The position numbers and the translations under genes were made by a program. The notes under the pieces were generated by a model. It had not been told where the DNA came from, made no database searches, and saw only the letters and a program-made list of their open reading frames with translations. A stretch of DNA of 64,000 bases from Candidatus Zhuqueibacterota bacterium. GTDB lineage: Bacteria > Zhuqueibacterota > Zhuqueibacteria > Zhuqueibacterales > Geothermadaptataceae. The DNA is taken from assembly GCA_030950365.1 (NCBI GenBank), contig JAUZRQ010000005.1, positions 1 through 64,000 of the forward strand, read 5' to 3'. This document shows, piece by piece, positions 19,245 to 33,045 of the stretch (position 1 is its first letter; every line of letters starts with the position of its first letter).

Positions 19245-19271
19245 CTTTGTGTTCTTTGTGACTTTGTGGTT
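19245..19271. repeat. Short periodic intergenic box (CTTTGTG units)
   Basis: Three successive units start with CTTTGTG (CTTTGTGTT, CTTTGTGA, CTTTGTGGTT). Read on the minus strand this is the ACCACAAAGTCACAAAG motif, which matches the CACCACAAAGGCACAAA boxes at 24049 and 24144 and the related box at 51447. It sits in the 181-bp gap between the GT2 genes at 18051-19103 and 19285-20280. No gene or terminator is supported in this gap. Confidence 0.55.
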
Positions 19272-19284
19272 CTATAAAATTCAG

Positions 19285-20280
19285 CTAACTTGTGTTTCCT
19301 TGAAAATCATACAACCGGTCATCGCGTTTTTCGCCGGTGCGCACCACCATGTGGGCAATCAAGCCGAAAAATAGAAAGCTCACACCGGAAGCCAGCAGCA
19401 AAAATACCAGCGACATTTGAATGTTCAGCACATCCGGCGTCACGCCGCCCTGCAGCCAGTTGAACAGCAGCGCCATGAAAATGAAAAGCCCGAGGCTGTT
19501 CAGCACGATCGACAATCGGCCGAAAAAGTGCACCGGATTGGTCAGGTATTTCAGCAAAAGATTCAGGGTGGTCAGATCCATCATCACCCGGAACGTGCGC
19601 GTGATGTTGTATTTGGATTGCCCGAACCGGCGCTCGTGATGGTTCACTACCATTTCGGAGATGCGAGCGCCTTCGATGCGCCCCAGCGCCGGGATGAACC
19701 GGTGCATTTCGCCATATAGCCGAATTTTGCGCATCAAATCACCGCGGTAGGCTTTCAATGAGCAACCAGTATCATGGATATCGATGCCGGTGGTTTTTCG
19801 GATCAGCCAGTTGGCCAGTTTGCTGGGCACCTTGCGGATGATCAGCTTGTCCTTGCGGTTTTTGCGCCAGCCGCTGACCACGTCGTAGCCTTCTTCCAGC
19901 TTCTCGACGATACGCGGAATGTCCTGCGGATCGTTTTGCAGATCGCCATCCATGGTGACGATGACCTCGCCACGCGCGGCCTCGAAGCCGGCGGCCATGG
20001 CTGCGGACTGTCCGAAATTGCGGCGGAACTTGATCACGCGCAGATGCGGACCCTCCGCTGCGAGCTCGCGCAAAATATCAAACGTGCGGTCGGTGCTGCC
20101 ATCATCGACGATCACCACCTCGTAGGTGCGGCCCCATGCCTGCATCACATCACGGATCTGCTCATGCAGTAGCCGCACGTTTTCTTCTTCGTTCATCACA
20201 GGAATAACGATGGACACCGACGGCCGTTTGGCTTTCGCGGTGCGGCGTTTCCGTTTGGGTTTTGCTCCGTTTTCGGCCAT
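19285..20280 (-). CDS. GT2 polyprenyl-phosphate glycosyltransferase (ArnC/GtrB-like)
   Basis: A 331-aa enzyme expected to transfer a sugar from a nucleotide donor to undecaprenyl phosphate at the inner face of the membrane. Motifs: SIVIPVMNEEENVRLLHEQI, IVDDGSTDRTFDIL, NFGQSAAMAAGFEAARG, the DXD as TMDGDLQNDPQDIPR (DGD at residues 111 to 113) and DTGCSLKAYRGD. Two membrane helices lie at about residues 245 to 310. The first 20 residues are Lys/Arg-rich (KPKRKRRTAKAKRP). It is the intact counterpart of the DXD-less protein encoded next to it. The start is one base after the upstream stop. Confidence 0.9.
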   Translation of the reverse strand: MAENGAKPKRKRRTAKAKRPSVSIVIPVMNEEENVRLLHEQIRDVMQAWGRTYEVVIVDDGSTDRTFDILRELAAEGPHLRVIKFRRNFGQSAAMAAGFEAARGEVIVTMDGDLQNDPQDIPRIVEKLEEGYDVVSGWRKNRKDKLIIRKVPSKLANWLIRKTTGIDIHDTGCSLKAYRGDLMRKIRLYGEMHRFIPALGRIEGARISEMVVNHHERRFGQSKYNITRTFRVMMDLTTLNLLLKYLTNPVHFFGRLSIVLNSLGLFIFMALLFNWLQGGVTPDVLNIQMSLVFLLLASGVSFLFFGLIAHMVVRTGEKRDDRLYDFQGNTS

Positions 20281-20281
20281 G

Positions 20282-20956
20282 TTAGCGTTTCGGTTTCAGT
20301 TTTTTTCGCGTTTCGCTCACTTCCACATACACCGGCGCGCCTTCTGCGCGTTGCCGAAGATATTTCACTTTGGCCAGCCGCAAGGTCACGGATTTTCGCG
20401 GCGACCGGCTCCGGCGCCATTTGTTGTAAAAATAGGTTCCCGCGGCCAGCGGGCCCATCAACAATAGCTCTCGCAAAGCCACCCAGAAGTTATGCATGGT
20501 GAACAAGCTCTGAAAAAAGGTGCTTGAGTCCGATGATTTATGCACCGAGGCGAACAGCGCCACGGGCGACATGTAATAGGTCGAATCCAGCGGCCAGAAT
20601 AGCATCACGCCGTAGGGGGCGCGCATGTCCTGGTTGAAAAAGTCGAGAATCAGATGCGAGTAATAGGTCGCCGCGATGAGCCCGAAATAGGGCCAGAACC
20701 GGCCATGGCGGCGCCGGAAATACAGCGCGCCAAAAAGTCCAACGGCCACCGCCGCACCCAGCGAGTGCACAAAACCGTGATGAAACCGATTCGGATTGCC
20801 CAGCAAAAATCCGGGCAAAAAATCAATATCGGGCAGATTGGCCAGCACGGCGAAAAACAACAGCGTCTGCCACGGCTTATCGAAAAAGCGCAACCGATCG
20901 CGATTGCCCTCGCAAATAGCGTATGCAGCGAGAGTATGTCCCACAGGTAACGGCAT
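20282..20956 (-). CDS. YdjM-family membrane-bound metal-dependent hydrolase
   Basis: A 224-aa membrane protein of the YdjM (DUF457) family. The conserved ligands are visible: GHTLAAYAI at the N-terminus, NLPDIDFLPG near residue 40, HHGFVHSLG near residue 58 and YYSHLILDFFNQD near residue 100; these His and Asp residues are proposed to bind metal in helices facing the membrane. The biochemical role of the family is not settled. The C-terminal 45 residues are basic. It is immediately upstream of the GT2 at 19285 and so belongs to the polysaccharide transcript, where a lipid-linked substrate is plausible. Confidence 0.82.
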   Translation of the reverse strand: MPLPVGHTLAAYAICEGNRDRLRFFDKPWQTLLFFAVLANLPDIDFLPGFLLGNPNRFHHGFVHSLGAAVAVGLFGALYFRRRHGRFWPYFGLIAATYYSHLILDFFNQDMRAPYGVMLFWPLDSTYYMSPVALFASVHKSSDSSTFFQSLFTMHNFWVALRELLLMGPLAAGTYFYNKWRRSRSPRKSVTLRLAKVKYLRQRAEGAPVYVEVSETRKKLKPKR

Positions 20957-21040: not shown

Positions 21041-22045
21041 CTAACGTTCCACCGATGACGCTTCCGATACCGGCGCCGCGGCGCCTTCCGCGGATTCCGT
21101 TTGCGGCGCGAAATCGCCCAGCAGATACAGCACCCCGCCGATCAGCGCCACGAAAATCATTTGCGCAAACAGAAGCAGCGAAAGCGACAGCGCCTGTTCC
21201 TCGGTGGCGCCCAGCGGCGTGAAAAAGAACACAAACGAGCCTTCACGAATGCCGATGCCGGCGATGGACAGCGGTAGAATAGTGATGGCCATGATCAGCG
21301 GTACGTAAATAAAATAATACGTCAACCCGATATCGATGTGCAGGCTGCGGCCCACCAGATAGATCACGTAGATACCCATCACCTGAAACAGCACCGACAC
21401 GGCCAGCAACCTGAGCATGAGCGCCCGGTTCTGGTGCAAAAACTGCGCGCCTTTTTGAAACTGGCCGATTTTATCGGCGATGCCGCTAAGCCCGAACTTC
21501 AGCAACAGCGGCCGGAACCAGCCCAGCACGCGCTCGCTCATCACCATCCACACCGCCACCATGAAGCCGAAAAACAGGCCAAGCACCAGCCAGAACAGCA
21601 GCGGGTTGCCGGTTTGATACGCCACCGGCACTGCCACCAGAAGCGCGATGGCAAAAAACACGATGTAGCCGACCACCCGGCTGATGAACATCGACGTGGC
21701 CGCATCCATGCCCTTTTTCATATACCGCGAAAGACTGAACGCGCGGACGATGTCCATGCCGATGCTGGTGGGCATGAACACGCCAAAAAACGTCCCCATA
21801 AAGTGCACTTTCAGCACGGTGGCAAACGGCACGTCGCTCTTCTGCGCATCCAGGAGCATCTGCCAGCTATACGCAATGATCGCCTGCTGCAGGAAAAACA
21901 GCGCCGTGGCCAGTATGAATATGCCCGGTTGCACTGCCATGAACGTGGCGCGCAGGCCCTCAAGGTCGATCTTCCACAGGACAGCGGCCATCAGCAACAC
22001 ACTGATGCCGCCGCGCAGCAGCGTTTTCTGAATTGTCTTTTTCAT
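21041..22045 (-). CDS. Lysylphosphatidylglycerol-synthase-type (AglD/UPF0104) membrane protein
   Basis: A 334-aa polytopic inner-membrane protein of the flippase-like domain family shared by AglD and the N-terminus of MprF. Marks are FMGTFFGVFMPTSIGMDIVRAFSLSRY (about residues 80 to 108), DAATSMFISRVVGY, and the late LPLSIAGIGIREGSFVFFF, all strongly conserved in the family. Such proteins are thought to move lipid-linked sugars or aminoacyl-lipids. It starts two bases after the stop of the asparagine-synthetase-like gene at 22048, so the two proteins are probably made together and may share a lipid-linked substrate. Confidence 0.86.
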   Translation of the reverse strand: MKKTIQKTLLRGGISVLLMAAVLWKIDLEGLRATFMAVQPGIFILATALFFLQQAIIAYSWQMLLDAQKSDVPFATVLKVHFMGTFFGVFMPTSIGMDIVRAFSLSRYMKKGMDAATSMFISRVVGYIVFFAIALLVAVPVAYQTGNPLLFWLVLGLFFGFMVAVWMVMSERVLGWFRPLLLKFGLSGIADKIGQFQKGAQFLHQNRALMLRLLAVSVLFQVMGIYVIYLVGRSLHIDIGLTYYFIYVPLIMAITILPLSIAGIGIREGSFVFFFTPLGATEEQALSLSLLLFAQMIFVALIGGVLYLLGDFAPQTESAEGAAAPVSEASSVER

Positions 22046-22047
22046 GC

Positions 22048-23964
22048 TCAGGCCACATCTTTCTGTGGCGTTTCTACTTTTTCACGTCGGTCCAGGTGTT
22101 TCTGGCACCACAGCTCCAACACCAGAATGGCCCATAGCCGGTGACTGTGGTTGTCGGCCTTGCTCAGGTGCCGCTGCAGCAGGGTTTGCACGAATTGCGG
22201 ATTGACCCAGCCGCGCTTTTTAAGTGTCTCTTCGGACAGCACCTGCTGCATCAGCTCGCGCACCTGCGGCGAGTTGCGCAGCCAGTTTTTGAACGGCACG
22301 CTGTGACCCAGCTTGTCCTTGCGGAACACGATCTCATCGGGCAGCACCCCGGCCATCACCTGATGAAAGATGTATTTGGTCGCGCCCGACGCGTCGATTT
22401 TTAGATTGGACGGGATGTGCGCGGTGTATTCCACCAGCCGGTGATCGAGCAGCGGGAAACGGCCCTCGAGGCCGAACCGGCGCACCAGTTCCATTCGGCG
22501 CAGGTAAAAGCCCACCACCGTGTAGTAATCGCCGTACAGCGATTTGGATAGATAATCCTCGCCATCGGCCTCGGAATACAGCGACAAAATCTCAGCCAGC
22601 GGGTCCTCTTTTTCGGCCGCTGCTTTCCAGTCGCCGGTGAGGAGCTGCTGCAATTCTTGCGGTGTGTAGTAGATGCGCCAGCGGTTACTGTACAGCGCCG
22701 CCGGGAACTGCACACTGTAGGAAAACCGCTTTGCCTTCACCGGCAGGCTCTTTTTCTGATCCGTATCCGGCAGCTTCTGCAGGAGTTGCGTCAGCGGCTT
22801 GCGGATAAACGCCGGAATTTTCTCGAATTTGCTGGCCATGCGATCGGCAAGGTACACCGGATGCCCGCCGAACAGCTCATCGCCGCCGTCGCCGGTGAGC
22901 ACGTAATCCACCACGCCGGAGGCCTTTTCCGCCAGCAGATAGGATGCCACCTCGATGCCGATGTCGGAAAACGGCTCCTGCGCATGCTCAACGAGTTCCA
23001 CGATGCGCTCCACGTCGGCGGCTTCATATGGCACCTCGTGATGCTGGGTCTGATAGCGCTCGCTCATCAGCCGGGCATAGGCCGATTCATCATAACTCTT
23101 GCCTCGGCAGCGGAACGAAAACGTGTGCAGCGGTCCCTTCACCATCGGCCGCATCAGGCCGACGACGGTGGAGCTATCCATGCCGCCGCTCAGATACGCG
23201 CCGGTGCGGAAGCGATCGGCATCCAGCCGGATGCGAATGGCATCGCGGAACAGCTCCAGCAGCTCCTGCCGGTAGGTGTCGATATCCTTTTCGAACTGTT
23301 CTTTGAAGGAGATGTACCAGTATGGCGTTAGCATCATGCGGTCGTTTTCGATGCGCAGCACATAGCCCGGCCGCAGTTTGTAGATGTCTTTGAAAAACGT
23401 ATCTAGCGCGGGGTTGTAGTTAAACAGGAAATAGCGCAATATGGCCGTGGGATTCAAATCTGCCTGAATGCGCGGATGATGCGCCAGTTGGTTTAGATTC
23501 GAGCTGAAATACAGCATGGACTCTTTGCGGTAATAGTAAAGTGATTCCACGCCGAGGTGATCGCGGGCGATCCAGAAGCGGTTCTGCCCCGGGTCGTGAA
23601 TGGCGAGTACAAAATTGCCGTTGGCGCGCAGGAATAGATCGGTGCCCCACTTCACATAGCCGGTGACCAGAATATCTCCGGCTGCGGCAGCGGATTTACC
23701 ATTGGTTTCGAGGCCGAGCGCTTCGGAAAGCTCGTGGTAGTTGAAAATATTGCCGTACAGCGCCACGGTAATGTTGCGGTCGCGGTCGGTGTGGAGCAGG
23801 TGTCCGGCATCATGGCTGGCGGCACCGGACAAGGTCAGGGCCAGAAAGGCCTGTTGATCAAGGAAATGGGGGGGCGCATCCTGCGGTTCGAGGCCCCAGT
23901 CCTGCCATGCGATTCCGTTCTCCTGATACTGCCCCGTTGCCTTGCCAAAGCTGCCAAAAATCAT
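22048..23964 (-). CDS. Asparagine-synthetase-like protein with inactive glutaminase domain
   Basis: A 638-aa protein with the two-domain plan of AsnB. The C-terminal half keeps the ATP-pyrophosphatase loop (YLSGGMDSSTVVGL, SGGMDS at residues 259 to 264) and later LTGDGGDELFGGHP and RFPLLDHRLVEY. The N-terminal class II amidotransferase fold is recognisable (ALYGNIFNYHEL, FWIARDHLGVESLYYY), but the protein begins MIFGSFGK: Cys2, the essential nucleophile, is missing, as is the HRGPD motif. An in-frame TGA two codons upstream rules out a longer start. It may use free ammonia or an amine, or receive ammonia from a partner. It may amidate a sugar carboxylate instead of making asparagine. Confidence 0.85.
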   Translation of the reverse strand: MIFGSFGKATGQYQENGIAWQDWGLEPQDAPPHFLDQQAFLALTLSGAASHDAGHLLHTDRDRNITVALYGNIFNYHELSEALGLETNGKSAAAAGDILVTGYVKWGTDLFLRANGNFVLAIHDPGQNRFWIARDHLGVESLYYYRKESMLYFSSNLNQLAHHPRIQADLNPTAILRYFLFNYNPALDTFFKDIYKLRPGYVLRIENDRMMLTPYWYISFKEQFEKDIDTYRQELLELFRDAIRIRLDADRFRTGAYLSGGMDSSTVVGLMRPMVKGPLHTFSFRCRGKSYDESAYARLMSERYQTQHHEVPYEAADVERIVELVEHAQEPFSDIGIEVASYLLAEKASGVVDYVLTGDGGDELFGGHPVYLADRMASKFEKIPAFIRKPLTQLLQKLPDTDQKKSLPVKAKRFSYSVQFPAALYSNRWRIYYTPQELQQLLTGDWKAAAEKEDPLAEILSLYSEADGEDYLSKSLYGDYYTVVGFYLRRMELVRRFGLEGRFPLLDHRLVEYTAHIPSNLKIDASGATKYIFHQVMAGVLPDEIVFRKDKLGHSVPFKNWLRNSPQVRELMQQVLSEETLKKRGWVNPQFVQTLLQRHLSKADNHSHRLWAILVLELWCQKHLDRREKVETPQKDVA

Positions 23965-24317
23965 AGGTCATCCCAATGCGTTTCGGTTCCTGAATGCTGT
24001 GGTTTTGAACGTCCCTGTCGTTCGTCGATGCTGCTTTAAGGTGAAATTCACCACAAAGGCACAAAAAATATAGATATCCATCCGGATATACACCCGATCT
24101 AACACCGTCTCCGGTGGTGTTTTTCATAGTTATGAAAGGCGATCACCACAAAGGCACAAAGCGCACTAAGATAAGCACATCTTAAAATTCATCAATTTTA
24201 AATCAGTGCCAATTAGTGCAATCTGTGGTTTTGTTGGCATTTCCTACTGGAATCAATCGACCTAACACCGTCTCCGACGATGTTTTGAAAAGCCCAAAAA
24301 GGCGACCACCACCCAAT
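23965..24317. repeat. 353-bp gene gap built of nested short repeats
   Basis: No gene is supported. The gap contains CACCACAAAGGCACAAA twice (24049-24065 and 24144-24160) and CTAACACCGTCTCCG twice (24099-24113 and 24262-24276). Each second motif opens a small hairpin (7-bp stem, 3-base loop). The stretch 24144-24230, ending CAGTGCCAATTAGTGCAATC plus TGTGGTT, has a counterpart at 51447-51535. The gap separates the polysaccharide deacetylase stop from the asparagine-synthetase-like start, so any transcript crossing it carries these structures in its leader. Confidence 0.7.
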
Positions 24318-25595
24318 TCACAAACTCTGCCGCAGCCGCTGCTTGAAAAGTGGCAGGTTCTGCAGGAATTTGTCTTTCAACAAATCCGTCAGCGGTTTGC
24401 GGCCTGCGCCCGGCAACCGGTACACATACCGGTCTTCGAGGCGCACGATGCGCAGCGGATCACTGCCCGGACGGTTGGCGCGCACATCCCGCCGCAGGCC
24501 CCAGTACAGGGCCTCGTAGCCGGCTTCCTGTGCGGCCTGCATTGCGGCGTCCGAGCCGATAAACCACGGAAAACAAAAGTGCCGCACGCGTTTGCCCGGC
24601 AGCCGCTCCTCGATGTACGCGCGGCACTGACGCAGGTCGTCCAGCATGGCCTGGTAGGCCTCCCGCTGGCTTTCGAATCGGCCATCGCCGTGCCGTTTGC
24701 GCTGGTCTCGAAAGAACTGCACCAGCTCGCGGCGCCAGTGCGGCTGCTCGAAAAAATGCATTCCGCCTGACTCCTGTACGAACCGTACGCAGGCTTCGCG
24801 CACCGTTTCGTTGTCAAAGTACTGCGGCCGACCACTCATGCGCGGCTCGGCGCGATACACCGGCGTGCCCAGCGGCTCGTTGCGCCGGTAATTGGGCCGG
24901 CCGTTGTGGTAATACAGCGGCACGTGAATGTTCGCATAAAAATAAAAATCGTAATTCGGATGCAAAAAGTCCACGAGCTGCGGCGACACGTGAATCAAAT
25001 GATGATACATCGTGTGCGCCTGAAAATCGATGACGTCGCTGTCGTGCATCTTCCGGATTTCCTGCCACGAGCACAGCGGGAAATCGCCGCGCTCGCGTTC
25101 AAGCAGGGCCTGCCGGGAAATCTGCCCGTGTTCGTACAGGCCGTAATCCGGCGCCGGCGGGGCTTCATCGGGGACACAGCCAGGAATTAAAAAACTGATC
25201 GCCCGAAAGCCGTATTTTTTCAGCAGCGGATACGCTACCGAATACAGACTCGCCGTGCCGTCATCAAACGTGAGCACCACGGCGTTGTCGGGCAGCGGTT
25301 GTTCCTTTTTCAAAACGGCCAGCAGCTCGTCCCCATTCAGGGTGACATAACCGTTGTTTTTCAAAAACGTCAGTTGCGCCTCGAAGCTCACTGGCTCGAC
25401 GGAGTGAAACACGAACACCGGGATCACCCCGTCCAGACTCTTCGGGTGCTCGGCGAACACAAACGGCGGATAATAGCGCGCCAGCAAGCCAACGACATCC
25501 GGCCAGTTTTTGCGGAAACTCCACCGCAGCTTATTGGCAATCGTGGCCCACATCATGTCGGTTGTTCCAGCTCCCGTTTCACAAAACCGCCTCAT
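24318..25595 (-). CDS. Polysaccharide deacetylase family protein
   Basis: A 425-aa carbohydrate esterase 4-type protein. The NodB domain shows VFVFHSVEP, the Asp pair in VVLTFDDGTASLYSVAYPLL (about residues 107 to 126), the fold segment RAISFLIPG and the metal His motif FQAHTMYHHLIH; a late FCFPWFIGSD fits motif 3. A long insertion with many aromatic residues lies between motifs 2 and 3. No signal peptide is evident, so it may act in the cytoplasm on an activated or lipid-linked N-acetyl sugar. Its ATG overlaps the upstream GT4 stop (ATGA). It is a second deacetylase, only distantly similar to the one at 10495. Confidence 0.84.
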   Translation of the reverse strand: MRRFCETGAGTTDMMWATIANKLRWSFRKNWPDVVGLLARYYPPFVFAEHPKSLDGVIPVFVFHSVEPVSFEAQLTFLKNNGYVTLNGDELLAVLKKEQPLPDNAVVLTFDDGTASLYSVAYPLLKKYGFRAISFLIPGCVPDEAPPAPDYGLYEHGQISRQALLERERGDFPLCSWQEIRKMHDSDVIDFQAHTMYHHLIHVSPQLVDFLHPNYDFYFYANIHVPLYYHNGRPNYRRNEPLGTPVYRAEPRMSGRPQYFDNETVREACVRFVQESGGMHFFEQPHWRRELVQFFRDQRKRHGDGRFESQREAYQAMLDDLRQCRAYIEERLPGKRVRHFCFPWFIGSDAAMQAAQEAGYEALYWGLRRDVRANRPGSDPLRIVRLEDRYVYRLPGAGRKPLTDLLKDKFLQNLPLFKQRLRQSL

Positions 25596-26784: not shown

Positions 26785-27570
26785 TTATACTTGCTGCATT
26801 TCCTGCTCGTCCTTCAGCTTGCGGCGGTCCTTCACCGGTTTGGCGGGAATGCCCACGGCAATCTGCCAGTCCGGGATATCGCTGTTCACCACGGCGCCGG
26901 CGCCGATGACGCATTCCTTGCCGACCCGCGTGCCGTCGAACACCACCACGTGCGCGCCCAACCATGCGTTATCGCCGATTTCGATGCCGCGCGCTTCGCG
27001 CTCCTGGTACAGCATCGGGATGTCGGTGCGTGAAAAGGTGTGCGTACCGCCGACCAGATAGCAGTACGCGGCCATCAGCACGTTTTTGCCCACGCGCACG
27101 CGGTTGGCGGAAAAGATTTCGCAATTGAAGCTCAGATTGGCGTTGTCATCGAGAATGATGTCGCCGTTTTTACAGCTCAAAATGGTGTTGCGGCCCACAA
27201 ACACGCCGTTGCCGATCACCAGTCCCCGGTTGTCTTTGCCCTTGGCGTCGAGCACCACGTTGTCATCGATCACCACGTTGTCGCCGATGAAAATCTTGTG
27301 CGGGTGCCGTAATACGACGTTGGTCCCGAACGTGACGTTGCGACCCACCCGGCCCAGTAGCTTCGGATACAGCTTGCTGCGCAGCAATAGCCCGAGCGCC
27401 CCGGGAATGGCGCTGCAGAACGTGATGATGAGTTCGTACTTGATCAGGTTCCACAGCCCCTTGCGGCCGATGATCAGCTCCATGTATTTGGACAGCTTCG
27501 AGGTCTTCTCGCTGAACAACTCCTTCTGGATCTCGACCGTTTCCTTTTTTACGCCGTTGGTTTCCGCCAT
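26785..27570 (-). CDS. Left-handed beta-helix acyltransferase (hexapeptide family)
   Basis: A 261-aa protein likely to acetylate a sugar of the polysaccharide. From about residue 90 it has repeated hexapeptide turns: VGRNVTFGTNVVL, IFIGDNVVIDDNVVLDA, LVIGNGVFVGRNTILS, VRVGKNVLMAAYCYLVGG, IEIGDNAWLGAHVVVFDG, and the closing VIGAGAVVNSDIPDWQIAVG with the family ending GIPAKPVK. The loop THTFSRTDIPM contains the catalytic-type His. The ATG at 27570 has AGGA eight bases upstream; an earlier in-frame start at 27648 gives a poorly conserved extension. Confidence 0.87.
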   Translation of the reverse strand: MAETNGVKKETVEIQKELFSEKTSKLSKYMELIIGRKGLWNLIKYELIITFCSAIPGALGLLLRSKLYPKLLGRVGRNVTFGTNVVLRHPHKIFIGDNVVIDDNVVLDAKGKDNRGLVIGNGVFVGRNTILSCKNGDIILDDNANLSFNCEIFSANRVRVGKNVLMAAYCYLVGGTHTFSRTDIPMLYQEREARGIEIGDNAWLGAHVVVFDGTRVGKECVIGAGAVVNSDIPDWQIAVGIPAKPVKDRRKLKDEQEMQQV

Positions 27571-27661
27571 GATTGCGTCCTGAAATCCGGGTTTGAAGTT
27601 TGTTTTTATCTTGATTGGCACATCCTGTTTGCTTCGCGAACCGCACACCGTGGGCGCGGGC

Positions 27662-28648
27662 TCACTGATCCAGCCAGCCCTGCTGTTTGTACCAATCCGC
27701 AGTGATTTTCAGCCCCTCATCGAGCGACACCCGCGGCTCGTAGCCGAGCAACCGTTTGGCTTTGGAAATATCGAACGCGCGGTCTTTGATGAAGAAGTCC
27801 ACGCGCCTCCGGAAGATCGGCGGTTCCAGGCCCAGCGGCTTGAAGGTCAGCTCGCAGAGCAGTCCGGCGAACCACACCGGCCAAACCGGAATGCGCGTCT
27901 TTGGCACCGGCCGATCCAGAATGCGGGCAATTTTCTCCACCAGCTCGTTCAGGGTCGCATACTCGTTACCGCCGATGGTGAAAATCTCGCCCAGCGCTTC
28001 CTGTTTTTCACCGGCCAGCGCAATGCCGGCCACCAGGTCTTCGACATAGGTCAGGTGGTACAGCACCTTGCCGCTACCAATCATGCGGAACTTGCCGTTG
28101 TAGATGTATTTGAACAGCTTGAGAAAGCGCGTGTCGCCCGGGCCGTAAATGCCCACCGGCCGCACCACCGTGCCCGGCAGGTTTTCCTTCTTGAAAAAGT
28201 TGAGGGCCAGCAGCTCGCCCTCCATTTTCGATTCCTGATAATAATCGCCCGGATTGTACGGGTCTTCTTCTTTAGCGGGCGGATTTTTGATTTCGCCCTG
28301 TACGCCGACCGTGCTGCAGTGCACAAACCGCTTCACGCCGGCCTTTTTAGCGGCTTGTAGCAGCTTGCGCGTGCCCTCCACATTCACCGCCCAGAACATC
28401 CTTTTGGGCACGTTTTCCGCGCGGTACAGCGCGGCAATGTGAAACACCACATCCACGCCGGCCACGGCATCCTCCACCGGATCATCGGCCGCCAGATCGG
28501 CGTAAGCGTATTCCACCGGCAGGCCCTCAAGCGTGCTCAGATTCGAATTCTTGCGGACGAGAACGCGGACGTCGTATCCTTTGTTCAGCAGATGTTTGGT
28601 GAGATAACTTCCGGTAAATCCGTTCGCTCCAGTAACCAGTGCTTTCAT
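27662..28648 (-). CDS. NAD(P)-dependent epimerase/dehydratase (extended SDR)
   Basis: A 328-aa SDR protein. The cofactor motif is KALVTGANGFTGSYLTKHLLN at the very start, the catalytic Ser is in FVHCSTVGVQGE and the YxxxK is YYQESKMEGE near residue 145. VVRPVGIYGPGDTRFLKLF is the usual substrate-binding segment, and the C-terminal DISKAKRLLGYEPRVSLDEGLK is typical of nucleotide-sugar epimerases and dihydroflavonol-reductase-like enzymes. It lies one base downstream of asnB. The precise sugar cannot be inferred; it is less like GalE than the genes at 14938 and 34742. Confidence 0.84.
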   Translation of the reverse strand: MKALVTGANGFTGSYLTKHLLNKGYDVRVLVRKNSNLSTLEGLPVEYAYADLAADDPVEDAVAGVDVVFHIAALYRAENVPKRMFWAVNVEGTRKLLQAAKKAGVKRFVHCSTVGVQGEIKNPPAKEEDPYNPGDYYQESKMEGELLALNFFKKENLPGTVVRPVGIYGPGDTRFLKLFKYIYNGKFRMIGSGKVLYHLTYVEDLVAGIALAGEKQEALGEIFTIGGNEYATLNELVEKIARILDRPVPKTRIPVWPVWFAGLLCELTFKPLGLEPPIFRRRVDFFIKDRAFDISKAKRLLGYEPRVSLDEGLKITADWYKQQGWLDQ

Positions 28649-28649
28649 C

Positions 28650-30539
28650 CTAATGCCTGTCGAGATAGATGCTTTTCCAGATGTGAAACACCATCAGCGC
28701 CCAGAGGCGATGACTGTGATTCTCCCTGTTGGCCAGATGTTCGTCGATCAGCCGCTGCACGTACGGCGGATTGAACAGCCGGTCGCGCTTGATCGTATCC
28801 GGGCTGAGCACATCCAGCATCAGCGGTTTCAGTTCCTTTTTGATCCAGTTCTTGATCGGGATGCTGAAGCCTTCCTTGCCGCGATGGATGATTTCCGGCG
28901 GCAGAAGCTCTTTCAGCGCTTCTTTCAAAAGGATTTTGGTACGGTTTTTATTGAGCTTGTATTCGCCTGGCACGCGCGCTGAAAACTCCACCACGCGGTG
29001 ATCCAGAAACGGCACACGCGCCTCCAGCGAAACGGCCATGCTCATGCGATCCACTTTGACCAGAATATCATCCACCAGATAGGTTTTGATGTCCACGTAC
29101 AGTTGCCGGTTCAGCGGATCGCGCGTGGTGGCCTTGCGGAAATACTGGCGCATGAAATCATACGCCGTGCGGCCGTTGCGGGCCCTCACCACGTCTTCGC
29201 TGTAAAATTTGGCTTTTTCTTCCTCGGCGAGGAAGGTCATCCAGCGCGTGTGTTCGAGGTCCTCCGGCAGGTGGCTGCCCTCGACGAACCGCTTGACCCG
29301 GTTGATGAGCCCCTTCTTCTTTTCAGTGGGCGGCAGCCAGGCGGCAATGGGGGCGACCATCTTCTCGCGCACCACCTCCGGCACCATCCGGCGGTAGGCG
29401 CGGTCGGTCCAGTCGGCAATATACGTATCGTAGCCGCCGAACAGCTCGTCGCCGCCGTCGCCGGAGAGCACAACCTTCACGTGCTCGCGCGCCATTTTCG
29501 ACACCAGATATGTGGGGAAAATCGAAAAATCGCCGAACGGCTCGTCCAGCATGTACACCAGCTTTTCCGTCCATTCCAGCGCATTCGGCTGGATGATCAG
29601 TTCGTGGTGCTCGGTATTGAAATGTTTGGCAATAGTGCGCGCGTAATCGAGCTCGTTGTACGTCTGATTCTCGAAGCCGATGGAAAACGTTTTGACTGGC
29701 TGGTCCATCACCCGGCTCATTAGCGCGACGATGGTACTGGAATCGATGCCACCGCTCAGAAACGCGCCCAGTGGCACATCGCTGATCAGCCGCTTTTTCA
29801 CCGAGTCCTGCAGAATTTCCAGCAGTTCCTGTTTGTATTCATCAAAGCTGCGGCCGTTTTCCTGGAAATGCACGTCCCAGTACTGATGCGTTTCGATCCG
29901 GCCCTCTTTGGCCAGCAGCAAATGCCCCGGCGGCAGTTTGTGGATGTTTTTCAAAATGCTGTACGGCGCCGGGATGTATTCATAGGTCAAAAACAAATCC
30001 AGCGCTTCGAGATTCAGCTCGCGCGGCACCGTGGGCAGTTGCACAATGGATTTCAGCTCGCTGCCGAACACCAGCCGGTGCTCGTCGAAATAGTAATACA
30101 GCGGCTTGATGCCGATGCGATCGCGGGCGAGGAACAGTTGCTTGCGGCGATCGTCCCAGATGGCGAAGGCAAACATGCCGTTAAAATGATTGGGACATTC
30201 GGCGCCCCATTCCTCATACGCATGCACAATGGTTTCGGTATCGGTTTTGGTGCGGAACCGGTGTCCTTTGGCCTCGAGCTCCTGCCGCAGCTCGGGAAAA
30301 TTGTAAATCTCGCCGTTGTACACGATCCAGATGGACTTGTCCTCATTGGCGATGGGCTGGCGGCCGGTCTGGAGGTCGATGATGCTGAGGCGACGCATGC
30401 CCAGCGCCACGTTGTCGTGCACAAAATAGCCGTCTTCATCCGGGCCACGGTGCACGATCACATCGCACATGCGCCGGATGTCTGGCTCGCGGGCGAAGTC
30501 GTCCTTATCGAAGTTGATATATCCGCAAATTCCGCACAT
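28650..30539 (-). CDS. asnB: Glutamine-hydrolysing asparagine synthetase family protein
   Basis: A 629-aa class II amidotransferase with both domains complete. It begins MCGICGYINF, so Cys2 becomes the N-terminal nucleophile, followed by VHRGPDEDGYF, VYNGEIYNF and LARDRIGIKPLYYY in the glutaminase half. The synthetase half has LSGGIDSSTIVALM (SGGIDS at residues 262 to 267) and VLSGDGGDELFGGYDTYI. It could make asparagine, but AsnB-type proteins in polysaccharide loci (such as WbpS of Pseudomonas aeruginosa O6) can amidate uronic acids, and the position between sugar-modifying genes fits that. Start and upstream stop overlap as TGATG. Confidence 0.88.
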   Translation of the reverse strand: MCGICGYINFDKDDFAREPDIRRMCDVIVHRGPDEDGYFVHDNVALGMRRLSIIDLQTGRQPIANEDKSIWIVYNGEIYNFPELRQELEAKGHRFRTKTDTETIVHAYEEWGAECPNHFNGMFAFAIWDDRRKQLFLARDRIGIKPLYYYFDEHRLVFGSELKSIVQLPTVPRELNLEALDLFLTYEYIPAPYSILKNIHKLPPGHLLLAKEGRIETHQYWDVHFQENGRSFDEYKQELLEILQDSVKKRLISDVPLGAFLSGGIDSSTIVALMSRVMDQPVKTFSIGFENQTYNELDYARTIAKHFNTEHHELIIQPNALEWTEKLVYMLDEPFGDFSIFPTYLVSKMAREHVKVVLSGDGGDELFGGYDTYIADWTDRAYRRMVPEVVREKMVAPIAAWLPPTEKKKGLINRVKRFVEGSHLPEDLEHTRWMTFLAEEEKAKFYSEDVVRARNGRTAYDFMRQYFRKATTRDPLNRQLYVDIKTYLVDDILVKVDRMSMAVSLEARVPFLDHRVVEFSARVPGEYKLNKNRTKILLKEALKELLPPEIIHRGKEGFSIPIKNWIKKELKPLMLDVLSPDTIKRDRLFNPPYVQRLIDEHLANRENHSHRLWALMVFHIWKSIYLDRH

Positions 30540-31746: not shown

Positions 31747-33045
31747 TCATCGCCCGACGCACACATATTTGAAGCCTTTTTCGCGCATCTTCGGCGGTTC
31801 GTAAATGTTACGCAGGTCGATTATCACCGGCTGTTTCATCAAGGATTTCAGCTTATCCAGGTCCAGGCTGCGGAACTGGTTCCACTCGGTAATGAATACC
31901 AGTGCATCCACATCTTTTGCCGCATCGTAGGTGTCCTTGACATACTCAATGTCTGGAAGTACATTTTTGGCCTCGTCCATGGCCACCGGATCGAACGCTT
32001 TCACATGCGCGCCGTTTTTCTGCAGTCCTTTGATGATATCGATGGCCGGCGCTTCACGCATATCGTCGGTATTCGGCTTGAACGATAGCCCTAGCACGCC
32101 GATGGTCTTTCCTTTCAGATCACCAATGGCGCTTTTGATTTTCTTCAGCATCAACTGCCGCTGCTCGTCGTTCACGCGCACCGCCGCATCGACGATTTTG
32201 AATTTGTAGTCGAATTGTTTGCCGATGGCCAATAGCGCCTTGGTATCTTTCGGGAAGCAGGAGCCGCCGTAGCCCGGTCCTGCATGCAGGAACTTCTTGC
32301 CGATGCGATTATCGAGGCCCATGCCTTTGGCCACATCGTGCACATCAGCGCCAACGCGTTCGCAAATGCGAGCGATTTCATTGATGAAGGAGATTTTCAC
32401 GGCCAGAAACGCATTGGCCGCATATTTGATCAGCTCGGCGCTTTCCAGATTGGTGAGTACGATGGGGGTTTCGATGAGATACAACGGTGAATACAGATCT
32501 TTCATGATCGCCATGGCTTCGCTGTCTTCAGTGCCGATCACCACGCGGTCCGGGCGCATAAAATCTTCAATGGCCGATCCCTCGCGCAGAAATTCGGGAT
32601 TGGATGCCACGCTGAAATGAATGGGGCGCGTCAGATTTTCCTGAATGATTTTTTTGATGTGCTTGGCGGCTCCCACCGGCACCGTGCTCTTGTTGACGAT
32701 GACCTTGTAGCCGTTCATATATTTGGCGATGTCCTTGGCCACCGCTTCCACATAGCGCATATCGGCGGAGCCGTCTTCTTTCGGGGGCGTGCCCACGGCG
32801 ATAAAAATCACCAGCGCATCTTCCACAGCAGCTTTCAGGTCGGTGGTGAACTTCAATCGCCCCTCTTTCACGTTCTTCGCCACCAGCACATCCAGTCCGG
32901 GCTCATAAATCGGGATGATGCCCTTCTTTAGTTTGCTGATCTTCTCTTCATCGATGTCCACACAGGTCACGTAATTTCCAAAATCGGCGAAACAGGTGCC
33001 CGTCACCAGACCGACGTATCCTGTACCAATCATACAAATATTCAT
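31747..33045 (-). CDS. ugd: UDP-glucose 6-dehydrogenase
   Basis: A 432-aa cytoplasmic enzyme that oxidises UDP-glucose to UDP-glucuronate with two NAD. The N-terminal Rossmann motif is MIGTGYVGLVTGTCFADFG, the catalytic Cys is in GPGYGGSCFPKDTKAL (about residue 260), and STVPVGAAKHIKKII and VLGLSFKPNTDDMREAP are family landmarks. The length is normal. The product is the parent of glucuronic and galacturonic acid units, and an epimerase that could use it is encoded at 34742. This makes an acidic, uronate-containing polysaccharide likely. The 181-bp gap upstream of its ATG shows no recognisable signal. Confidence 0.95.
   Translation of the reverse strand: MNICMIGTGYVGLVTGTCFADFGNYVTCVDIDEEKISKLKKGIIPIYEPGLDVLVAKNVKEGRLKFTTDLKAAVEDALVIFIAVGTPPKEDGSADMRYVEAVAKDIAKYMNGYKVIVNKSTVPVGAAKHIKKIIQENLTRPIHFSVASNPEFLREGSAIEDFMRPDRVVIGTEDSEAMAIMKDLYSPLYLIETPIVLTNLESAELIKYAANAFLAVKISFINEIARICERVGADVHDVAKGMGLDNRIGKKFLHAGPGYGGSCFPKDTKALLAIGKQFDYKFKIVDAAVRVNDEQRQLMLKKIKSAIGDLKGKTIGVLGLSFKPNTDDMREAPAIDIIKGLQKNGAHVKAFDPVAMDEAKNVLPDIEYVKDTYDAAKDVDALVFITEWNQFRSLDLDKLKSLMKQPVIIDLRNIYEPPKMREKGFKYVCVGR

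Follow-up and report, generated by a model that had tools for sequence, protein, structure and literature searches.

What is left for an asparagine-synthetase homologue to do once its glutaminase has gone is the question raised by a surface-glycan locus of Candidatus Zhuqueibacterota bacterium, which lies in a stretch of 64,000 nucleotides that was analysed whole and that we call the window. Two members of the AsnB family are encoded there, one canonical, with an MCG start, and one that has no cysteine at its start, to which we refer as the Cys-less protein. The two copies, and the parts of the second that bear on its function, are as follows.

28650..30539, minus strand: canonical MCG AsnB-family amidotransferase P0002, WbpS/TIGR03108-like, in the same locus
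22048..23964, minus strand: Cys-less AsnB-family synthetase P0001, 638 aa, start MIFGSFGK
23290..23964, minus strand: degenerate glutaminase-like domain (Ntn fold), residues 1-225
22051..23289, minus strand: intact synthetase domain, residues 226-638
23173..23190, minus strand: SGGMDS PP-loop, residues 259-264, S-G-G-x-D-S being invariant in 44/44 sequences
22861..22863, minus strand: codon of His368, which replaces the Tyr of a catalytic dyad

The open reading frame at 22048-23964, which the earlier note had reported with no strand, lies on the minus strand, and its translation does begin with MIFGSFGK and not with MCG. The in-frame TGA that was said to stand two codons 5' of the ATG is there (...TGA-CCT-ATG, read as 'ALG*PM'), so that a missed start is excluded. 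It is equally correct that this protein lacks HRGPD and has SGGMDSS, and that the second homologue, at 28650-30539, keeps Cys2, with a start of MCGICG and HRGPD present. Within the window, the two copies are 34% identical over 572 aligned columns. The Cys-less protein has both of the features by which the AsnB superfamily is recognised, the SGGxDS PP-loop and a PF00733 domain (254 bits against a Pfam cut-off of 21, E 4e-75), and its match to GATase_7 is weak (E 2e-19) and begins only at residue 59. Its AlphaFold model, built with 29 sequences, has a pLDDT of 90 and is confident along almost all of the chain; the solved structures closest to it in fold are TsnB9, AsnB, beta-lactam synthetase and carbapenam synthetase, and the canonical partner returned the same list.

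Of 82 genomes of the phylum that were searched with a profile, 45 carry the Cys-less gene; a first search had given 32 of 60 genomes, the window's own included, at an identity of at least 42%. The 44 Cys-less sequences that were long enough to align, on which the alignment and the tree are based, form one clade with a support of 100, and the survey of homologues that the earlier note had called for thus does recover a conserved Cys-less clade, separate from the 36 canonical partners and the 28 other AsnB paralogues in the same tree. Because this is a quick tree with long branches, the placement of the clade relative to other AsnB groups is unsure; the clade itself points to one origin, and to an ancient one. 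Cysteine is residue 2 in none of the 44 aligned orthologues, and the column of the mature Cys1 of E. coli AsnB never holds a Cys. Most of the starts read M-[I/M]-x-G, and in two sequences of family f19, which start MWCG, the Cys is residue 3 and would not be exposed by removal of Met. One of two AsnB copies has probably shed its nucleophile on more than one occasion, since the phylum also has, at other loci, tandem pairs with MEG beside MCG (L124:353-4108, L132:802-4576) or MSG beside MCG (L125:549-4407, L126:581-4418), and their MEG and MSG copies fall outside the Cys-less clade in the tree. One further candidate for a Cys-lacking copy, L127, was rejected, as it starts MCA and has its Cys. 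In genome G043, the canonical AsnB is found in two frames (L058:2282-4191), through either a frameshift or a sequencing error.

There is a negligible chance that the Cys-less protein stems from faulty sequencing or assembly, or from a pseudogene in decay. The window's genome is a draft of 5.0 Mb in 136 contigs, which favours such an explanation, but the same start and the same losses recur in all 44 orthologues, which excludes a sequencing error; the open frames are full-length, and both halves of the protein are under purifying selection, with computable dN/dS values that lie at 0.04-0.24 in the N domain and at 0.02-0.09 in the C domain, several pairs giving no value and others being near saturation. 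The two findings that the earlier note had named as fatal to its own reading, a sequencing error in the start region and close homologues that all have Cys2, have therefore both failed to appear. Outside the phylum, a scan of the genome collection with one protein gave only AsnB relatives of 26% identity, from Lachnospiraceae and other Clostridia, a plasmid search gave matches of about 30% at best, and a literature search found no description of the clade. The Cys-less protein is a real, conserved and new variant within the AsnB superfamily, and an MIxG start, GGH or AGH in place of GGY, FRC and GHS together offer a sequence signature by which such enzymes may be spotted.

Class II amidotransferases are defined by an N-terminal Cys nucleophile that is freed by removal of Met, and the MIFG start supplies none. 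The loss reaches well beyond this residue: matched by alignment, the equivalents of Cys1, Arg49, Asn74, Glu76 and Asp98 (mature numbering of E. coli AsnB) are gone together with HRGPD, and within the glutamine-binding and oxyanion set of Arg49, Asn74, Gly75, Glu76 and Asp98, only Gly75 is kept, the other positions being variable. In AsnH of L. casei, the change C2S abolishes the glutaminase, and the corresponding residues of the synthetase site are given as essential (PMC3885529). Since the whole glutamine site is gone in the clade, hydrolysis of glutamine by the Cys-less protein's own domain seems very unlikely, and the N domain would so be a folded structural remnant, judging by its residues and by the predicted model.

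The synthetase half has been kept and, at the same time, remodelled. The equivalents of E. coli Ser234, Gly235, Gly236, Asp238, Ser239, Gly347, Asp351, Glu352 and Lys449 have been preserved by every one of the 44 sequences, as have the synthetase-site residues Lys551, Asp359, Asp362 and Glu363, and the region of the second essential Lys (Lys530) is also retained in the clade. When 31 Cys-less and 27 canonical sequences are compared column by column, 35 columns are conserved in the Cys-less clade only and 24 are conserved in both clades but different; 52 of these 59 distinguishing columns fall in the synthetase half, where FRC, DES, DIG, HPVY and GHS are invariant and specific to the clade. The Glu-Tyr dyad (Glu352-Tyr357 in E. 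coli AsnB, Glu363-Tyr368 in PesC) is not retained: the Cys-less copies have His368 (44/44, as GGH or AGH), and the canonical copies have Tyr (36/36, as GGY). The dyad is a trait of canonical members and not of the AsnB superfamily as a whole. From motif spacing, we infer that His368 occupies the position of PesC Tyr368, where the equivalent Tyr-to-Phe change abolished activity (PMC13060819), and the His could also mean that catalysis is altered or lost. The kept residues make ATP-dependent activation of a carboxyl group likely, and the residue pattern, the dN/dS values and the predicted structure together suggest a remnant N domain attached to a C domain that looks like a functioning but altered synthetase.

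What such a synthetase might act on is suggested by its neighbours, the relevant ones in the window being the following.

31747..33045, minus strand: nucleotide-sugar 6-dehydrogenase (TIGR03026, near TuaD), a source of uronic acid
27662..28648, minus strand: NAD-dependent sugar epimerase/dehydratase (SDR)
26785..27648, minus strand: hexapeptide acyltransferase, fused to LPG_synthase_TM in other families
24318..25595, minus strand: polysaccharide deacetylase (PF01522), immediately upstream of the Cys-less gene
21041..22045, minus strand: LPG_synthase_TM or flippase-like membrane protein (PF03706, TIGR00374)
20282..20956, minus strand: YdjM-type membrane protein, a conserved downstream neighbour
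19285..20280, minus strand: GT2 glycosyltransferase of the polyprenyl-phosphate type, a conserved downstream neighbour

The gene order of this glycan locus is strongly conserved across the phylum: Wzc, epimerase, sugar transferase, nucleotide-sugar dehydrogenase, GT4 and MCG-AsnB, followed by (radical SAM, methyltransferase, GlpD-like), SDR, hexapeptide acyltransferase and (GT4, deacetylase), and then by the Cys-less AsnB, (LPG_synthase_TM, ProC, GNAT), YdjM and three GT2. Wherever contigs allow, the Cys-less gene shares the locus with a canonical MCG copy. The earlier note had placed a membrane-protein gene two bases downstream of the Cys-less stop, where it indeed lies (spacer 22046-22047), and had suggested that the Cys-less protein may work with this AglD-type protein. 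A specific partner it is not, because LPG_synthase_TM, found in 25 of the 32 loci that carry the Cys-less gene, is also encoded in each of the 17 complete loci that lack it. More specific to Cys-less loci is the deacetylase, with 21 of 32 loci that have the gene against 0 of 17 complete loci that do not, and it is missing from 11 of the 32 (families f5, f7 and others); the loci behind these counts, 32 with the gene and 17 complete ones without, are not phylogenetically independent. L115, L116 and L160, in which only the canonical copy passed the bit cut-off, are not counted as carriers, and L119, whose contig ends before the site, is left out of the locus counts. In families such as f5 and f7, LPG_synthase_TM is fused to or adjoins the hexapeptide acyltransferase, and the fusions (L050:8029-9840, L060:7565-9442, L070:13908-15653, L071:2291-4069) are found both in loci that have the Cys-less AsnB and in loci that do not.

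A polysaccharide pyruvyl transferase (PF04230) shows the opposite distribution, occurring in 13 of the 17 complete loci that lack the Cys-less gene but in not one of the 32 that carry it, and a genome-wide search agrees. Its place, confined to loci that have no Cys-less AsnB, is between the SDR and the fused acyltransferase, at the following positions.

L071:4125-5303: polysaccharide pyruvyl transferase
L143-L146, L150-L152, L154-L157, L159, L161: polysaccharide pyruvyl transferase

This exclusion is largely one switch, because only two changes map to the canonical AsnB tree, on which a test of independent pairs is powerless.

The best explanation that we can offer is that the Cys-less protein is an active amide synthetase, independent of glutamine, that serves the surface-glycan precursor of the locus, a proposal in which catalysis, substrate and product are all inferred and to which we give an even chance. 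Because the glutaminase half is lost and the ATP-using half is kept and remodelled, the enzyme probably joins some amine other than that drawn from glutamine to an amino acid or a sugar. The C-terminal domain would adenylate a carboxylate with ATP, and an external amine would attack the activated carboxylate, leaving an amide on the precursor. An amino sugar suggests itself as the source of the amine, because the deacetylase associates with the Cys-less gene and would expose a free amino group, and the activated acid may be an amino acid or a uronic acid; against this stands the absence of the deacetylase from 11 of the 32 loci. In its most specific form, that of a dedicated ligase that works throughout this T9SS-bearing phylum and forms amides between an amino acid or a uronate and an amino sugar whose acceptor amine is exposed by the neighbouring deacetylase, the proposal is doubtful.

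The main rival, which we consider possible but well short of probable, is a plain amide synthetase whose nitrogen donor is ammonia, free or passed through a channel from the MCG partner, and whose product is a uronamide or a similar primary amide. Loss of the glutaminase is compatible with plain amidation, because AsnB-family enzymes can use free ammonia, and PesC does accept it (PMC13060819); 42 of the 45 genomes that carry the Cys-less gene also have the MCG partner, and the remaining three are drafts with a completeness of 70-82%. The tandem pairs of L124, L125, L126 and L132, in which an MSG or MEG copy stands beside MCG, are independent instances of such an association. However, the MCG copy persists throughout families f3, f6, f8, f10 and f12, which have no Cys-less gene, and hence has a job of its own, the two genes are not adjacent, and the pocket and the dyad have changed more than a new source of ammonia would need. 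These same changes, together with the acyltransferase and deacetylase genes nearby, would suit an acyl-decoration enzyme that activates a carboxylate and then passes it to a nucleophile other than an amine, to a hydroxyl, for example, to give an ester. The confinement of pyruvyl transferase to loci without the gene hints in this direction, at an interchange of carboxyl or acyl tailoring, but it largely reflects one evolutionary switch, and the AsnB-family products described in the literature cited here are amides, lactams or nitriles, so that we regard transfer to a non-amine as unlikely.

Quite unlikely, too, is a pseudo-synthetase that has a regulatory or scaffolding role and modulates the MCG enzyme or an assembly complex. 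Its glutaminase site is dead and its catalytic Tyr is His, and pseudo-enzymes regulate their partners in related pathways (PMC13060819), but the residues of the ATP site are all invariant in 44 of 44 sequences, and it is the C domain that has the lower dN/dS. ProC, which lies beside the Cys-less gene in f1, f2 and some f7, was considered as a clue to a proline-type amine and rejected; as the only ProC of those genomes, it is a housekeeping gene. Such a sole ProC is found inside the glycan operon at L040:4095-4946, L043:14073-14888 and L060:4757-5575, and the ProC of the window's genome is on another contig.

Among known systems, beta-lactam synthetase, carbapenam synthetase and lasso-peptide cyclase have lost the Cys, and the Cys-less protein is predicted to resemble them in using an AsnB fold to adenylate a carboxyl group without glutamine. 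The first two, which form an amide within one amino acid substrate, are among its nearest solved folds, a likeness of fold only, and with the lasso cyclase model NF033535 it scores 211 against a cut-off of 525. Unlike these enzymes, which belong to peptide and antibiotic clusters, it is encoded in a glycan locus, and no lasso-type neighbours, such as a precursor peptide and a leader protease, are seen among the annotated genes around it, a set without short open reading frames. The best match among solved structures, by both sequence and fold, is the hydroxyamidotransferase TsnB9 (7ylz), which belongs to a different pathway and is 19% identical. With E. coli AsnB (1ct9), the protein has the two-domain fold and the ATP/PPi site in common, but it lacks the glutaminase residues, has His for the dyad Tyr, and is 17% identical in a structural alignment. 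The best NCBIfam match of both window copies is the WbpS/WbqG/TIGR03108 group of XrtA/PEP-CTERM amidotransferases (eps_aminotran_1/WbpS), whose cut-off is 816.9; P0002 scores 700.8 bits, and the Cys-less protein, which unlike this group is without Cys2 and the glutamine site, scores 329, matching only from residue 59.

Like the locus in the window, members of the TIGR03108 group lie in glycan loci with a deacetylase and glycosyltransferases (PMC7468200). In P. gingivalis and T. forsythia, the linking sugar of proteins that leave by type IX secretion bears a serine or a glycine, and the pathway proposed for it consists of the TIGR03108 AsnB-family protein WbpS (in P. gingivalis only), the deacetylase VimE and the aminoacyl transferase VimA, the proposed product of the P. 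gingivalis set being a uronamide sugar decorated with an amino acid (PMC7468200). The Wbp/Vim pathway resembles the locus in the window in combining an AsnB-family amidotransferase with a deacetylase and genes for a uronic acid, and in the presence of type IX secretion (T9SS) in the phylum, but it differs in that the aminoacyl step is assigned to the GNAT-like VimA and that no Cys-less AsnB is described there in the literature cited here. T9SS sorting domains occur in 82 of 82 genomes of the phylum and PorU is over cut-off in 73 of 82, so that, by analogy, a similar decorated sugar is plausible here, its link to T9SS being putative. If the Cys-less protein does form amides in this way, it would open a new enzymatic path to surface sugars decorated with amino acids, its product would possibly be the linking sugar that anchors secreted proteins, and glycan tailoring would join the jobs taken up by those relatives of asparagine synthetase that have given up glutamine. 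The protein would then offer a concrete and testable candidate for the decoration of surface sugars in a little-studied phylum with type IX secretion.

T9SS was rejected as a discriminator, being universal in the phylum with or without the Cys-less gene, and so was a link to exosortase and PEP-CTERM, because just 7 of 82 genomes have an exosortase that passes the cut-off. The window's genome has about 98 matches to T9SS type A sorting domains at E <= 0.001, and one exosortase (G000:C97) that is absent from most of its relatives. Two exact copies of the 17-mer CACCACAAAGGCACAAA lie in the gap that precedes the Cys-less gene on its 5' side, at 24049-24065 and 24144-24160 of the window, against a chance expectation of 0.01, and two imperfect copies of it are found at 19255 and 51447.
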